In this document: piece after piece, positions 15,411 through 22,334 of the stretch
How positions within the stretch are numbered: the first letter of the stretch is position 1
Layout: every line of letters begins with the position of its first letter
From: Halolamina sp. CBA1230
GTDB lineage: Archaea > Halobacteriota > Halobacteria > Halobacteriales > Haloferacaceae
DNA length: 64,000 nucleotides
Assembly (NCBI RefSeq): GCF_002025255.2
Contig: NZ_CP054587.1
Coordinates: 2,046,001-2,110,000 of the forward strand
Direction: 5' to 3'
The notes under the pieces: generated by a model
Seen by the model: the letters and a program-made list of their open reading frames with translations, nothing else
The model's database searches: none
Told to the model about the DNA's origin: nothing
Program-made: the position numbers and the translations under genes

Positions 15411-17650
15411 ATGTCCACCCCGGAACCCCGGTTCGACCGCGTGCCGGCGCCAGCCCCGCCCCAGAGCGCCGACGCGTGGTACGCGCCCGAGACGCTCGCC
15501 CAGTACGAGAGCACGCCCGGCGTCGTCGCCACCGTCTCCCGCCACGACGGCGAGGAGGCCGAGTTCGCCTACGACGCCCGCGAACCGCCGCTCTCGCCGA
15601 GCGAGCGGACGGAGTTAGCGCGGGTCCGCGAGCAGTTCGCCGGCACGCAGCGCCGCCGCCCGCTCACGCGGCAGGGCGCCGTCGAACGCGCCGAGTCGGG
15701 GCTCCCACCGAAGTACGAGCGGACGCTCGACCGCCTGCTCTCGGGCGGGCCGGGCGCGCGCCGGCGCCTGCACTACCACGCGCTGCGGGACCTCCGACTG
15801 CTCGGCGATGTGACGCCGCTGGCGCTGGACGACGACGTCGGCGTCGCCGACAGCGAGGCGGCCGCGGACGGCAGTCTCGTCGTCCACACGACCGATTTCG
15901 CGCCCGCGGTGACCGATCTCGACGCGGACGGCGAGTTCGTCGACCGCGTCGCCGCCGAACGCCTGCGCCGCTACGAGGTCGAGTTCGCGGGCTACCCCGT
16001 CCCGGTCGTCGTCTACCGCGACGGGATGCTCGGTAGCGATCGGTTCGCCACGCGCTACGCGGTGCTCGAACCCGATCTCCTCCCGGGCGACGAGGCGCTG
16101 ATCGCGGAGTGCAAGGAGCGCATCTGGGAGGCGAGCACGGAGGACGTGATCGGTGGCGGCACCGACCGCCGCGCGTTCGTCGCCGAACGCGCCCGACAGC
16201 TGCTCTCCCGCAGACTCACCGGGCGGAACACCCGGGAGTGGCTCGCGTCGGCGGAGTACCGCGTTCGCTCGGCGCTCGCCGACCTCGGCGTCGGACTGCC
16301 GCCGGTCGACGACCGCTACGCCGAGGATCGGCTGGACGACTTGGTGTACCACGTCCTGCGTGATTACGTGGGACAGGGACCGCTGACGGTGCCGATCCGT
16401 GATCCCAACCTGGAGGACGTCGAGGCCAACCGCGTCGGCGAACGGGTGAAGGTCGTCCCGCGCAGCGACGTCGCCGACGGCGGCCGTGTGCCGACCAACC
16501 TCCAGTTCGACGCCGAGAGCAGTTTCGTCAACGTCGTCACCCAGCTCGCGGCGAGCGACGGCGTCGAACTCGACGCCTCGAACCCCAGCGCGAAGGTGAA
16601 CCTCGACCCGCCGGACGTCGACGAGACGGTCCGGTGTGCGGTCGCGCTGCCGGTCATCAGCGAGGGCGGCCCCCACGTCTCCATCCGCAAGCAGGCCGCC
16701 GAGACGATGACGCCGGTCGACCTGCTTCGGAACGACACGCTGTCGACCGATCTCGTCGCACTGCTCTGGCTCTGCTACGAGCACCAGGGCGTCGTGCTGT
16801 TCTCCGGCCCGACGGGGGTCGGGAAGACGACGCTGATGAACGCCCACATGCCCTTCGTCCCCTACGACGACCGGCCGGTCTCCATCGACGAGGGGTCCCG
16901 GGAGGTGCGCCTCCCCCACGAGACCGGCGTCTCGCTGACGACGCGGGATCACGAGAGCGAGTACAAGCGCGTGACGATGGCGGATCTGATGACGGAGTCG
17001 AACTACCTGAATCCCGATACGGAGGTGATCGCCGAGATCAACACGCCCGAGAGCTTCGAGACGTTCGCCGAGACCGTCAAACAGGACATGGCGTCGTCGG
17101 CACTACACACGCCGAGGACGTGCGGACGCTCGTCAACCGCGTGGTCGAGCAGGGTGTCCCGGCCTACCTGCTCGCGGAGATCGACCTCGTCGCCTTCCCC
17201 CACCGCTCGGACGGCGATCGCTACGTCGCCCGCGCGGTGGAGTTCCTCTCGCCCGAGCAGGCCGAGCAGCTCCCGCCCGGCGCGGGCGAGGTGATCGAGA
17301 AAGGCGACACCGAGATCCACTACAACGAGGTGTTCAGCCGCGACGTCGCCGGCGAGTTCTCGCTCTCGGGGCCGACCGACCCCGCGAGCCCGGACGACCG
17401 CGGGTTCCGACTGTTCCACCGGATCGCCGCCGCGACCGATCGCCGGCCGGACGCGGTCGAGCAGGAGTTCCGGCGCAAGCGCCGTTACGTGGAGTTCCTC
17501 GCCGACGAGGGCGTCGACGAGTTCGACGAGCTGTTCGACCTGCTGGCGGATCTCCGCACCGACGAGGCCGCGACGGTCGAACGCCTCCGGCGGACTGCGG
17601 TGGCCGACGGGGGACAGTCCGACGACGGGGGGACGGTCGATGAGTACTGA
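15411..17650 (+). pseudogene. type IV pilus/secretion ATPase (GspE/TadA/PilB family) with a -1 frameshift
   Basis: This is the hexameric ATPase that drives pilin assembly. Frame 1 encodes an N-terminal domain and Walker A GPTGVGKTT at residue ~466, then SIDEG and VIAEINTPESFETFAETVKQ. At base 17084 the frame breaks: the expected QGHGVVGTTHAEDV (His-box) continues only in the -1 frame, which then stays open to TGA 17648-17650. One G appears missing (CAGGACAT where CAGGGACAT would restore the frame). Repaired, the product would be 746 residues and overlap the next gene by 11 bases. As it stands, translation in the first frame would give 627 residues with a nonsense tail, probably inactive. The cause may be a sequence error, a recent mutation or recoding. 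Confidence 0.85.
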
Positions 17651-19547
17651 GCACGGCAGCCCCGGGAGTGTCGACGGCGACGCCGCGGCCTCCCGGCTCT
17701 CGGCGCTCGACCGGGCGCTGTACACGCTGTTCGCGAGCGAGGCCGACGCCGCGCGCCACAGCGCCCACCGCGAGCAGTACCGCGGCACCGACCTCGGCGT
17801 CGGCTTCGACGTGTACGTCGCCCGGCTCCACGGGCTCGCGTGGCTGGCCGCGGTGCTGGCGGTCGTTCCGACGCTCGCGATCGCGCTCGCAGCGCCGGAG
17901 GGGACGTACGACGTGGTCGCGGGGCTGCTCGCGCGGGTCGCGCCCGTCGGCGTCGCACCGCGACCGCCCCGGCTCCTCGTCGGTGCCGTCGTCGGAACCG
18001 TGGTCGGCGTCGCCACCCGCCACGGGGTGATCGCGCTCGGCGGGCGCTACCTCGGCTGGCTGGCGAGCGCTCGGCAGGCCGACATCGGGCGCACCCTCCC
18101 CGGCGCCGCCCGCTACCTCCACGCGCTCTCCTCGGGCGCCGACAGCCCCCGCGAGATGCTCCGGAAGGTGGCCGAGAACGACGCCTACGGCGAGACCGCC
18201 GTCGCCGCGCGGAAGGTGCTCAACACCGCCGCGCTCACCGGCAGCCTGAACGAGGGGCTGCGCCGGGTCGCCCGCGACACCCCCTCGCGGGACACGCTCG
18301 CGCCGTTCCTGCTGAAGTTCCGCGAACACAGCGAGCAGGGCGGCGACGCGCTGGCGAACTACCTCGGTCTCGAAGCTCGGATGCTCGGCCACCAGCGCTC
18401 GCAGGCCCAGCGGCGCAACGAGGGGTTCCTCGAACTGGTCGCGGAGCTGTTCGTCGTGCTGCTGGTGCTGCCCGCGCTACTCGTGGTCGTGCTGACCGTG
18501 ATGAGCGTGCTCGCACCCGGGCTCTCGGCGCAGATACCGACGCCGTTGGGGCCGATCACCACGCGGGCACTGCTGATCTACGGCGCCGCCGCGTTCGTGC
18601 TGCTCGTCGGCGCCGGCGCGGCGACGACGGTCGGCCACCTCCGACCGACGGAGCGACAGGTGACGTACAGCCGACCCGAGGGGCCGCTGGAGACGCTCCG
18701 TTCGACACTGACGAACCCCGCGAGCGCCGCCGTCGTGCTCGCGCCGCTGGCGCTCGCCGGGATCGGTGCGGGACATCTCGCCCGCATCCACCCGCTCGGC
18801 TCGCTGCTCGCGGGCTACGTCGCGTGGGGCGTCCCGGTCGGCGCCGTCGCGGTCCGCCGCGCGCGGATCGACGACGCGAAAGACCGGGAGATCCAGGAGT
18901 TCGTCCACGCCGTCTCGGGTCACGTCGGCCTCGGCCGGCCGTTCGGCGAAGCGGTCGAACTGGTCGCCGAGGACGTGGATCTCGGCCCGCTTCAGGAAGA
19001 CGTTGCCTCCTTGGCGTTCGACCTCTCGCTGTCGGACAGCCCCGACGGCGCCGACCGACGGACGGCGGCGCTCTCCCGGTTCGTCGACCGGGTCGGGACG
19101 CCGCTGGCTGCCCAGACGATGGGGCTAGTGACGGGCGCGTTCGACGCCGGCAGCGACACCGAGTCGGTGTTCGAGACGCTCCAGACTGAAGTCGGCCAAC
19201 TCTATCACGAGAAACGAGCCCTGCGGAGTGATCTCGCGGTGTACGTCGGCGTCGGCTGGGTGACGGCGCTGCTGGTGGTCGCGATCGTCGTCGCGGTCGA
19301 CCTGTACGTGCTCGACGGGTTCGCACAGCTGTCGGCGATGCCCGGCTCGGCCGGCTTCGCGCTGGATCCGAACGCGATCCGGCCCGAACGCGAGCGGTTC
19401 CGCTTCGCGGTCGTCGCCGTCGCGACCTCGATCGCCGCGGGCTGGTTCGCCGGGATGGCCAGCCGCGGCCCCTACGACGCGCTGTTGCACTCCGGCCTGT
19501 TGGGTGCGCTTGCCGCCGCAGTGTTCGCGGGGGTGGGGCTGGCGTGA
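17640..19547 (+). CDS. pilus/secretion platform membrane protein (GspF/TadC/PilC family)
   Basis: A 635-residue inner-membrane platform protein that pairs with the ATPase encoded just upstream. It contains two T2SSF-like repeats: cytoplasmic four-helix parts at roughly residues 150-260 (PGAARYLHALSSGADSPREMLR) and 410-510 (DREIQEFVHAVSGHVGLGRPFGEAVE). Pairs and groups of transmembrane helices stand between and after them. The duplicated architecture is usual in archaeal pilus and archaellum systems (compare ArlJ). The start overlaps the ATPase reading frame by 11 bases, evidence that the ATPase gene is, or recently was, translated through the downstream frame. Confidence 0.9.
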   Translation: MSTEHGSPGSVDGDAAASRLSALDRALYTLFASEADAARHSAHREQYRGTDLGVGFDVYVARLHGLAWLAAVLAVVPTLAIALAAPEGTYDVVAGLLARVAPVGVAPRPPRLLVGAVVGTVVGVATRHGVIALGGRYLGWLASARQADIGRTLPGAARYLHALSSGADSPREMLRKVAENDAYGETAVAARKVLNTAALTGSLNEGLRRVARDTPSRDTLAPFLLKFREHSEQGGDALANYLGLEARMLGHQRSQAQRRNEGFLELVAELFVVLLVLPALLVVVLTVMSVLAPGLSAQIPTPLGPITTRALLIYGAAAFVLLVGAGAATTVGHLRPTERQVTYSRPEGPLETLRSTLTNPASAAVVLAPLALAGIGAGHLARIHPLGSLLAGYVAWGVPVGAVAVRRARIDDAKDREIQEFVHAVSGHVGLGRPFGEAVELVAEDVDLGPLQEDVASLAFDLSLSDSPDGADRRTAALSRFVDRVGTPLAAQTMGLVTGAFDAGSDTESVFETLQTEVGQLYHEKRALRSDLAVYVGVGWVTALLVVAIVVAVDLYVLDGFAQLSAMPGSAGFALDPNAIRPERERFRFAVVAVATSIAAGWFAGMASRGPYDALLHSGLLGALAAAVFAGVGLA

Positions 19548-20272
19548 GCGACGGCGACAGCACCCCACGCCGTCGCGCGCAGTCGCACGTCGTCGGGGTC
19601 GCACTCCTCATCGCGATCACGACGATATCGATGGGCGCGCTCACGGCGGGCGTCGGCGGGATCGTCGAGAGCAACGCCGCGGCCGCCGACGCGGACCGCG
19701 TGGCCGACTCGTTCGCGGACATCGACTCCTCGGCGTCGACGGGCGTCGAGCGCCACGACCTCGCGTTCGGTGAGGGGAGCCTCTCGGTCGAACCCCGGAC
19801 GGTCAGGCTGTTCGACGGCGACCGCCGCGTCGCCGAACGCGAGGCGAAGGCGCTCGTGTTCGAGGCCGGCGATCGCCGGGCGACCTACCTCGCTGGCGGC
19901 GTCGTCCGAGGGGTGGGGAACGCCTCCCGGCTCGGCGAGGCGCCGCCGATCGCGACCGGCGACGGCCTCCTGCTCGTCGGCCTTCCCGTTCTGAACGTCG
20001 ACGGCAGCGCCTCGATCGCGGGGGAGAGCGTGACGGCGACGCTCCGGACCGACACCAGCCACGAGCGCCGCGAACTCGGCCGAGGCGAGTACCGCCTCGC
20101 GGTCGAGACCGCGACGCCGGGCGCGTGGGAGCGCTACTTCGCCGAGTCGAACGCGAGCGTGACCCGCCGGGCGTTCGACGGCGACGAGCACGGGAGCGTC
20201 GTTGCCACGTTCCCCGCCGAACGGACGGGGTATCTGGTGGTTCACGAGGTGGAACTGGAGGTGGAGACGTGA
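19544..20272 (+). CDS. prepilin-like protein 1 of the secretion operon
   Basis: A 242-residue protein with a class III signal: RRRAQSHVVGVALLIAIT, where a PibD-type peptidase would cut between A and Q and leave a hydrophobic helix for filament packing. This is the form closest to archaeal pilins and archaellins. The remaining ~200 residues form a probably extracellular beta-rich domain. The GTG start overlaps the stop of the platform gene (GTGA). The length is larger than a major pilin, so a minor or tip pilin is plausible. Confidence 0.75.
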   Translation: MSDGDSTPRRRAQSHVVGVALLIAITTISMGALTAGVGGIVESNAAAADADRVADSFADIDSSASTGVERHDLAFGEGSLSVEPRTVRLFDGDRRVAEREAKALVFEAGDRRATYLAGGVVRGVGNASRLGEAPPIATGDGLLLVGLPVLNVDGSASIAGESVTATLRTDTSHERRELGRGEYRLAVETATPGAWERYFAESNASVTRRAFDGDEHGSVVATFPAERTGYLVVHEVELEVET

Positions 20273-20745
20273 GGTTTGATGGCGACGACCGCGGGGTCAC
20301 CCCGGCGGTCGGGAAGGCGCTGGAGGTCGGGATCGTCGTCCTGTTTGTCGGGGCGATGACGACCGCGCTGTACGGCGGTGCGGTCCCCGACTACCGCGAC
20401 GCGGTCGGGGCCGAAGTCGGTGATCGGGCGGTCGTCGCGGCGGCCGAACGCGTCGAGAACGCCGTCCCGCCGACGGCGGGCAGCGTCCGGACCGTCCACG
20501 AGGTCGACCTGCCGCGAACGATCCGGGGGGAGAACTACCGGCTCGCCGTCGAGGACGGGGTACTCGTCCTCGACCACCCCTCGCCGGCCGTCGACGCCCG
20601 CGCTCGGCTCGCGCTCCCCCAGCGTGTCGAGTCGGTCGACGGCGCGTGGCGGAGTAGCGACGACGCGGTGGTGCTGGTCACCGGCGACCGTGGAGGACTG
20701 CACGTCGAACTCACTGCCAGTGACGCGCTCGGAGGGGAGCGATGA
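20269..20745 (+). CDS. prepilin-like protein 2 of the secretion operon
   Basis: A 158-residue protein that begins with a short charged leader and DDRGVTPAVGKALEVGIVVL, a class III-type cleavage site (G before V) and hydrophobic helix. The C-terminal ~120 residues look extracellular and beta-rich. The start is GTG 20269 overlapping the previous stop; a longer frame upstream would overlap prepilin 1 and lacks the signal at its N-terminus. The function is inferred from signal and context only. Confidence 0.75.
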   Translation: MRFDGDDRGVTPAVGKALEVGIVVLFVGAMTTALYGGAVPDYRDAVGAEVGDRAVVAAAERVENAVPPTAGSVRTVHEVDLPRTIRGENYRLAVEDGVLVLDHPSPAVDARARLALPQRVESVDGAWRSSDDAVVLVTGDRGGLHVELTASDALGGER

Positions 20746-21398
20746 CCGACGCCCGCGGGCAGGCGAACCTGCTCTCGCTCGTGGTCGCGCTCACCGCGCT
20801 GGTGTCGGCGACGACGCTGGGGCTGGTGATCGCCGACGGCGCGCTGGCGGGTGCCGATCGAGAGCCGGGCGAACGCCGTGCGGCCGTCGCTACGGCGGAG
20901 CGGCTCGTGAGCGCCGACGCGACGACGGTCCGGGAGAACGTGCTCGACGACGACACTGTCGGGGGGCTCTCGTTGTCGGACCTCGACGCCCTCGCTCCGC
21001 CCGTCGCGAACCGCTCGGTTCGAGTCCGGCTGGGCGACGAGACGCTACTCGAACGCGGTGATCCCACCGGCGCGACCGTCGAGCGGGTAGTGCTCGTCGC
21101 CGAACGGACGACACGGTCCCGCTCGCTCGCCGTCGGCGGTGGCGACGATCTCACGCTGCCCCGTCGGACCGACCGCGTGGAACTGACGTTCGGCGGCGGG
21201 TCGACGGTGGAGACGGTCCGGGCCAACGGCCGGATCGTGCTCCACGAACCCGGCGGGCTCACGGGGCAGTTCGTCGTCGAGCCCTCGCGGTACGAGACGG
21301 TGACGCTGGCGTTCGAGGGCGGGACGGCACAGATCGCAGTCGAGTCGACGCCCCTGCGGACGGAGAAAGCAACCCTGCGGGTGACCGTCGATGACTGA
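20742..21398 (+). CDS. prepilin-like protein 3 of the secretion operon
   Basis: A 218-residue protein starting TDARGQANLLSLVVALTALV, again a class III signal with a predicted cut between G and Q followed by a hydrophobic helix lacking charge. The mature domain has alternating short strands and several Thr/Val-rich stretches. ATG 20742 overlaps the upstream stop by four bases and the downstream gene starts inside its last codons. I recall this as one of a run of haloarchaeal DUF families always found behind PilB/PilC-type genes. Confidence 0.75.
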   Translation: MTDARGQANLLSLVVALTALVSATTLGLVIADGALAGADREPGERRAAVATAERLVSADATTVRENVLDDDTVGGLSLSDLDALAPPVANRSVRVRLGDETLLERGDPTGATVERVVLVAERTTRSRSLAVGGGDDLTLPRRTDRVELTFGGGSTVETVRANGRIVLHEPGGLTGQFVVEPSRYETVTLAFEGGTAQIAVESTPLRTEKATLRVTVDD

Positions 21399-21798
21399 CC
21401 GCGGCCAGCTCTCGCTCACGATGGTCGAGGCCGGTGTGGGGGTACTCCTGCTGTTCGCGGCGACGGCGACGTTCGCGCTCGGCCTCCCTGCTGCGGGCGT
21501 CGACGAGGCCCAACTCGATCGGTACGCCGACGACGCTGGGACGGTGCTCTCCCGCGAGCCGCCACAGCACGGCGGGCTGACCAGGCTCTCGGAGGTGACC
21601 CGGTCCGAGTCGGCGTTCGAACGCGAGCGCTCGGCGCTCTCACATCGCGTCGAGCGGATCCTCCCCGAGAACCTCATGTATCGCGTCGAAACACCTCACG
21701 GCGCCGTCGGCTTCCGACGACCGACCGGCGTCCCCACCGGCCGGGCAGCGGTGCCGACCGTGGGTGGTCGAGTGATAATCCGGGTGTGGTACGCGTGA
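21391..21798 (+). CDS. prepilin-like protein 4 of the secretion operon
   Basis: A 135-residue protein with the signal TDRGQLSLTMVEAGVGVLLL, cut predicted between G and Q. A glutamate at position 9 of the mature helix (VEAGV), close to position 5 where the conserved Glu of bacterial type IV pilins lies, is unusual among the five. The C-terminal part is short and basic. It overlaps both neighbours. The size is near that of a small minor pilin. Confidence 0.72.
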   Translation: MTDRGQLSLTMVEAGVGVLLLFAATATFALGLPAAGVDEAQLDRYADDAGTVLSREPPQHGGLTRLSEVTRSESAFERERSALSHRVERILPENLMYRVETPHGAVGFRRPTGVPTGRAAVPTVGGRVIIRVWYA

Positions 21799-22334
21799 AC
21801 CGGGCGTCGAGGGTCTGTGGGGACGACCGCGGGCAGACGGTGCTCGTCGCGGCGGCGATGCTCGCGCTGGCGCTGATCCCGCTGGGTTTTGCGTACCTCC
21901 AGCTGGGCTACCACGAGGACGTGGCGGCGTCGACGTCGCCGGAGACGCCCGGCAGTGAGACGATCCGGCTGCTCGAACGCGCGGTGTACGACGCCGGCGG
22001 CGAGGCGACGGGCCACCCCTGGCAGGGACGGGCCGGCGCAGTCCAGCAGGTGAACGCCTCGCTCGCGCCGCGGGAGCGGGATATCGAGGCCGCGCAGGTG
22101 ACCGGCGGGACCGTGGTCCGGACCGAACGCAACGAAAGCACTGCGGGCGCGTGGGCGGCCGAGAACTGTCCGAACAGTGCGGGACGGCTGTTCGGTGACT
22201 GCGAGGCGCTCGGTGGGATGATCGTCCAGGAGCGGGCCGGCGAGACCCACCTGCTCGCGGTCGCGTACGACATCCGCGTCGTCGACGACCGCGGGGAGAC
22301 GGCGCTGACGGTGGTGATCCGAGCCGACGGGTGA
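21795..22334 (+). CDS. prepilin-like protein 5 of the secretion operon
   Basis: A 179-residue protein (GTG 21795; an in-frame GTG three codons earlier is less likely because 21795 gives the GTGA overlap). The leader is followed by GDDRGQTVLVAAAMLALALI, a class III signal with a G/Q cut. Two cysteines (AENCPNSAGRLFGDCEALGG) could form a disulfide outside the cell. It is the last gene of the operon; it converges on a minus-strand gene 17 bases later. Confidence 0.73.
   Translation: MNRASRVCGDDRGQTVLVAAAMLALALIPLGFAYLQLGYHEDVAASTSPETPGSETIRLLERAVYDAGGEATGHPWQGRAGAVQQVNASLAPRERDIEAAQVTGGTVVRTERNESTAGAWAAENCPNSAGRLFGDCEALGGMIVQERAGETHLLAVAYDIRVVDDRGETALTVVIRADG

Follow-up and report, generated by a model that had tools for sequence, protein, structure and literature searches.

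The window analyzed here comprises 64,000 nucleotides of the 3.47 Mb genome of the haloarchaeon Halolamina sp. CBA1230. It contains a block of seven genes in which an assembly ATPase and a platform protein precede five small genes in tandem, all on the plus strand (Table 1). A first-pass annotation made from the letters alone had described five prepilin-like genes behind one ATPase/platform pair. The five open reading frames are present where it placed them and PilC is intact with its T2SSF domains, but the frame of the ATPase is broken. The five small genes overlap at their start and stop codons by 4–13 nt, and their translation is therefore probably coupled. The start codon of the second gene is a GTG overlapping the stop codon of the first; for the fifth gene a GTG at 21795 may serve as an alternative start. 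All five Pfam matches lie far over the cut-off and confirm the DUF numbers given in the annotation. In the literature that we searched, none of these five family names was found. Outside the seven-gene block none of the neighboring genes tested was conserved past the genus, and no copy of the window PilC was found on plasmids. One Peptidase_A24 gene at C1:1875038 (8.6e-12) is the candidate for PibD in this genome.

Table 1. Features of the seven-gene block (window coordinates; the slash marks the predicted cleavage position).
Feature	Position	Strand	Remarks
PilB-type (VirB11-like) assembly ATPase, predicted pilB1 orthologue	15411..17650	+	T2SSE 9.4e-13; frame broken by 1-nt deletion
pilB frame parts	15411-17080, then 17081-17650	+	break between 17080 and 17081
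Frameshift point in the NTGHG codons; also mobile-DNA junction in L095 and L332	17080..17081	+	
PilC-type platform protein, predicted pilC1 orthologue	17640..19547	+	two T2SSF stretches, T2SSF 2.1e-17
Predicted prepilin 1, DUF7289, PilA-like H-domain, site RA/QSHVVG	19544..20272	+	Pfam 9.6e-55
Predicted prepilin 2, DUF7266, site RG/VTPAVGK, invariant Lys +7	20269..20745	+	Pfam 3.7e-56
Predicted prepilin 3, DUF7263, site RG/QANLLS	20742..21398	+	Pfam 1.2e-75
Predicted prepilin 4, DUF7262, site RG/QLSLTM, invariant Glu +8	21391..21798	+	Pfam 2.5e-57
Predicted prepilin 5, DUF7261, site RG/QTVLVA, conserved Cys pair	21786..22334	+	Pfam 4.8e-63

For each prepilin family the sequences from 83 dereplicated loci were aligned. 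Arg at position -2 is kept in 412 of the 414 rows of the five family alignments, and the full site rule (a charged residue at -2, Gly, Ala or Ser at -1 and a hydrophobic stretch from +1 to +22) is satisfied in 410 of 412 rows. Position +1 is almost invariably Gln in four families and mostly Val or Leu in DUF7266. When a similar rule was applied to the 56 likely genes of the window, it automatically picked up four of the five prepilin genes; the DUF7266 gene escaped solely because the ORF caller had taken an upstream start. Among the 51 other likely genes the rule was satisfied once (Fisher p about 1e-6, with all five prepilins counted as found). The PibD-type sites proposed earlier for all five proteins thus hold as predictions, and their conservation supports an assignment of all five to the class III (PibD-type) prepilins. 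Two charged residues within the hydrophobic helices are invariant, Lys at +7 of DUF7266 (83/83) and Glu at +8 of DUF7262 (81/81). We can only guess that these two might be paired in the core of a filament.

The mature domains had been described as different from each other, and they do belong to five distinct Pfam families. AlphaFold2 models of two of them, DUF7266 (pLDDT 90) and DUF7262 (pLDDT 88), look pilin-like in outline and unlike each other: in the former a long N-terminal helix leads into about seven strands, in the latter a first helix precedes three more helices and four strands. For both proteins a fold search against solved structures returned only meaningless weak matches, so that the support for pilin folds comes from this architecture.

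Relation to known pilus operons

The system itself is already known, though little studied, under the names pilB1-C1 and pil-2 and as the pilBC plus five-gene block of H. walsbyi. The first-pass annotation, whose reading was largely right, had overlooked this prior knowledge as well as the frameshift in pilB. Primers for H. volcanii pilB1-C1 were printed by Legerme and Pohlschroder (PMC6491452). Of 15 Haloferax genomes, 4 contain an exact match to the pilB1 start primer, which is the sole one and lies at the start of the orthologous PilB; the reversed-pattern controls gave 0 matches. The other two primers fit with 1 mismatch each, the upstream primer 687 bp ahead of the orthologous Haloferax PilB and the PilC-end primer where the orthologous PilC terminates. 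Since three published primers sit in position in the Haloferax genomes, the window operon is, judged by its sequence, of the pilB1-C1 type and orthologous to hvo_0620-0619. The H. volcanii operon (hvo_0620, hvo_0619, hvo_0618 and following) resembles the window in the end of PilC, in the overlap with the next gene and in DUF7262/7263; it differs in that the window pilB is frameshifted. Its ATPase belongs to clade 4C of Makarova et al. 2016 (PMC4858521; PMC6491452), and through orthology to H. volcanii pilB1 this placement may be carried over to the window ATPase. In H. volcanii, pilB1::tn and delta-pilB1-C1 mutants show weaker adhesion, and pilB3-C3 complements in trans (PMC6491452); the phenotype is that of pilB1-C1 mutants of this species, not of the individual small proteins and not of Halolamina.

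The pil-2 locus of H. salinarum (OE1347R to OE1332R) was described as seven co-transcribed ORFs spanning 6.9 kb, namely pilB2-pilC2 plus five genes, only three of which were called prepilins by FlaFind (PMC4292770). At the corresponding locus of H. salinarum DSM 3754 (L134) we found all five prepilin families in the same layout as in the window. The pilC gene of this locus carries an in-frame stop, as reported for pilC2 of strain R1 (PMC4292770). In H. walsbyi DV3 pilB/pilC are likewise followed by 5 genes, described as a strain-variable surface locus with a predicted class III site in only two of the five (PMC3119063). All seven genes are found with the layout of the window in H. walsbyi J07HQW1 (L107).

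Several other known systems were considered and rejected. PilB4-C4 of H. volcanii has two large pilins (PMC4371748), and the primers indicate pilB1. For an archaellum the scores are far too low, as the FlaI model reached 110.6 bits and ArlJ 35.2 bits against a cut-off of 550 each. Adhesion pili of the PilA/PilB3-C3 type have a near-identical PilA H-domain and pilins unlinked to pilBC, whereas the window encodes five different H-domains, all linked to pilBC, and only the DUF7289 protein gives an additional Pilin_N match, just below the cut-off (6.5e-5). In bacterial type II secretion most pseudopilins carry Glu at +5, and their GspG-K folds are recognisable; in the window set there is no conserved acid at +5 in any of the five, and Glu at +8 occurs in DUF7262 only.

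Inheritance of the prepilin block

Next, we compared loci encoding a PilC of the window type, the identity of which ranges from 47 to 92% across loci. The five prepilin genes were complete, on one strand and in a fixed order in 92 of 92 loci, and none of the five was present at a further 19 loci (one of them a short contig), whereby some genomes count twice in these totals. Partial sets were not found among the 111 loci. In L040, L044 and L093 PilC and the five prepilins are present and no PilB lies upstream. The distribution is patchy: the operon occurs in 8 of 15 Haloferax species, and DUF7263 was found in 55 of 146 genomes of the order.

The loci lacking prepilins belong mostly to Halorubrum, whose PilC shows about 51% identity to that of the window. 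In the PilC tree these motors nest within the five-pilin clade, beside those of H. vacuolatum and Halopenitus, where the five prepilins are present, and the labels "five" and "none" need only 2 changes on the tree. DUF7263 and DUF7262 were absent from the sampled Halorubrum genomes except for one weak sub-threshold match. Because the prepilin-less motors sit within the five-pilin clade, the sequences indicate that the five-gene set was lost as a block in Halorubrum at least once, with PilB and PilC retained. A second block loss, again with PilB and PilC retained, probably took place in Natronomonas aquatica. Loss of the whole block from a retained motor is the best evidence in our analysis and supports the view that the five prepilins are one obligate functional unit, kept or lost together. 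The suggestion of a multi-pilin machine, made from the window sequence alone, gains support from this all-or-none inheritance in 111 loci. Since Halorubrum retained the motor without the five, the PilB-PilC motor can presumably serve other clients.

A second operon comprising PilB-PilC and five prepilins is located in the same genome (L056:5284-14258; C1:545283-554257). It encodes DUF7287, DUF7288, DUF7261-like and DUF7266-like proteins and a DUF7289+DUF7308 protein, and its PilB has sub-threshold PilB3-like domains. It differs from the window operon in gene order, in two subunits without detectable relation, in its larger subunits and in the lack of Lys +7. When profiles of the mature domains of both sets were compared, only the DUF7289 domains were clearly homologous (hhalign probability 94). 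The occurrence of two unlike sets of five in one genome suggests that five subunits are a design and not an accident. In addition, a T4P-like locus of this genome (L058:2374-12962) encodes DUF7283, DUF7285, DUF7284 and a 1019-aa DUF7286 protein adjoining an FtsZ-family gene.

The pilB frameshift and mobile elements in pilB

In the window one base of an Asn codon of pilB is missing after position 17080, where relatives read ETVNTGHGVVGTTHAEDV and the window AA-ACAGGACATGGC. The ORF at 15411-17294 thereby enters the wrong frame, while the true C-terminal part runs on to 17650. The deletion severs the His box and the C-terminus from the frame of a gene that is intact in most relatives; in the pilB screen some "STOP" flags reflect alignments past the variable C-terminus and are not mutations. 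The sequence beyond the indel is still coding-like, which points to a break that either occurred recently or is not real; the missing base may be a sequencing error.

Proviruses and other elements were found within pilB of this operon type in several genera. In H. halophilum (Halorubrum) a 7.6-kb element (L195:3969-11534) with integrase and head-protease-like genes, flanked by copies of TCAACGC, lies just after Walker A. A different element occupies the same pilB codons in H. vacuolatum, with its ends on separate contigs (L198/L199). Both are bordered by a short target duplication and have CTACTAGTAG-like ends in inverted orientation, and this end motif is common to three elements. Strain SHR40 carries a 30.5-kb element (L196/L197) in pilB about 50 bases upstream of the post-Walker A site, and a 2.5-kb low-GC insert in another pilB (L031:2741-5270) contains an 805-aa pentapeptide-repeat/channel-like ORF. 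Two further junctions with pilB are located at NTGHG, the codons of the window deletion. One belongs to a Haloarcula element (L095:1976), which shares an accessory protein (53% identical) with the H. halophilum element. The other is found on the tailed-virus contig IMGVR_UViG_3300027007_000010 (L332:1-204), which carries terminase and tape-measure genes. In two strains of H. salinarum, NRC-1 and 63-R2, pilB2 has already been reported to carry a 10-kb element, accompanied by an 8-bp duplication (PMC10264941). Our survey revealed no such insertions in pilC or in the five prepilin genes; as it started from pilC, pilin blocks that are interrupted may have escaped it.

Directly after the window indel five of ten codons end in A or T, as compared with 7.8% in the pilB gene. 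The clustering is notable if this fixed place alone is considered (P 0.0015), but not if it has to stand out as the strongest stretch anywhere in pilB (P 0.26). This patch and the coincidence in place with the NTGHG junctions are suggestive, and the frameshift may be a scar of integration or excision. A search among the genomes with the 14-mer following the frameshift gave no sign of an origin from an element; its matches were chance-like, and the reversed control was of similar scale. Tentatively, and with more doubt than confidence, we propose that pilB is a recurrent target of haloarchaeal proviruses and related elements, with hot spots at NTGHG and just behind Walker A, that one type of pilus would be switched or broken as these elements enter and leave the gene, and that the window frameshift would be such a scar.

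Possible assembly and role of the five prepilins

We consider it likely that the window holds the Halolamina copy of the pilB1-C1 operon, the five prepilins of which would be cleaved by PibD and extruded by PilB/PilC as an obligate set aiding adhesion. PibD would remove the short charged leader from each prepilin, and the PilB ATPase beneath the PilC platform would extrude the five as one filament or as a tip-plus-filament structure, which would help the cell to adhere. As the likeliest roles, DUF7289 and DUF7266 with their PilA-like N-termini would provide one or two core subunits, and DUF7263, DUF7262 and DUF7261 would act as initiating or capping minor pilins. In this strain the own motor is frameshifted, and unless this is a sequencing error the pilins would depend for their assembly on another PilB-C pair acting in trans, or would stay unassembled. 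As a counterpoint, adhesion in H. volcanii is dominated by PilA1-6/PilB3-C3.

Alternatively, all five could be minor pilins of an initiation or tip complex, with the filament body formed by a major pilin encoded elsewhere, e.g. of the PilA family. H. volcanii pilB3-C3 assembles the trans-encoded PilA1-6 and can replace PilB1-C1 (PMC6491452), and the motor pair kept by Halorubrum fits with other clients. However, a dedicated major pilin within the operon was proposed for related clades by Makarova et al. 2016 (PMC4858521), and no separate pilin family tracking the operon came to light in our analysis. We regard a major pilin from elsewhere as rather unlikely. Less probable still is a decay of the system in this strain, in which the frameshift in pilB would mark the onset of loss and the five genes would be relics. 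Broken pilB genes in several other genomes, the pilC stop in H. salinarum (also in pilC2 of R1; PMC4292770) and the two block losses would agree with decay, but PilC and all five prepilins are intact in the window and the coding-like frame beyond the indel speaks for a recent or artefactual break. A short pseudopilus for secretion or display in place of an adhesive pilus, operating in the manner of the type II secretion machine with its five pseudopilins, would explain five different prepilins per motor, the apparent absence of a dominant PilA-type subunit and the second set of five in this genome. It is nevertheless very improbable given a conserved operon without secreted-substrate gene or secretin partner, the adhesion phenotype of the orthologue (PMC6491452) and the outcome of our searches by sequence and by fold, which matched no bacterial pseudopilin.

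While the pilus system had been described before, new here are the all-or-none behavior of the five-pilin block, the recognition of all five as prepilins by conservation, the motor retained in Halorubrum and the repeated insertions in pilB. For five DUF families of Pfam that are uncharacterised, the analysis offers a concrete reading as members of an obligate set of prepilins. Halorubrum, which retained the motor and dropped all five jointly, provides a natural experiment, and the handling of five different subunits by one archaeal motor becomes testable. Furthermore, an archaeal pilus ATPase gene is flagged as a repeated landing site for proviruses. If this is true and the pilus is a virus receptor, integration into pilB would amount to a block of superinfection, for which the prophage in Listeria comK offers a comparison.
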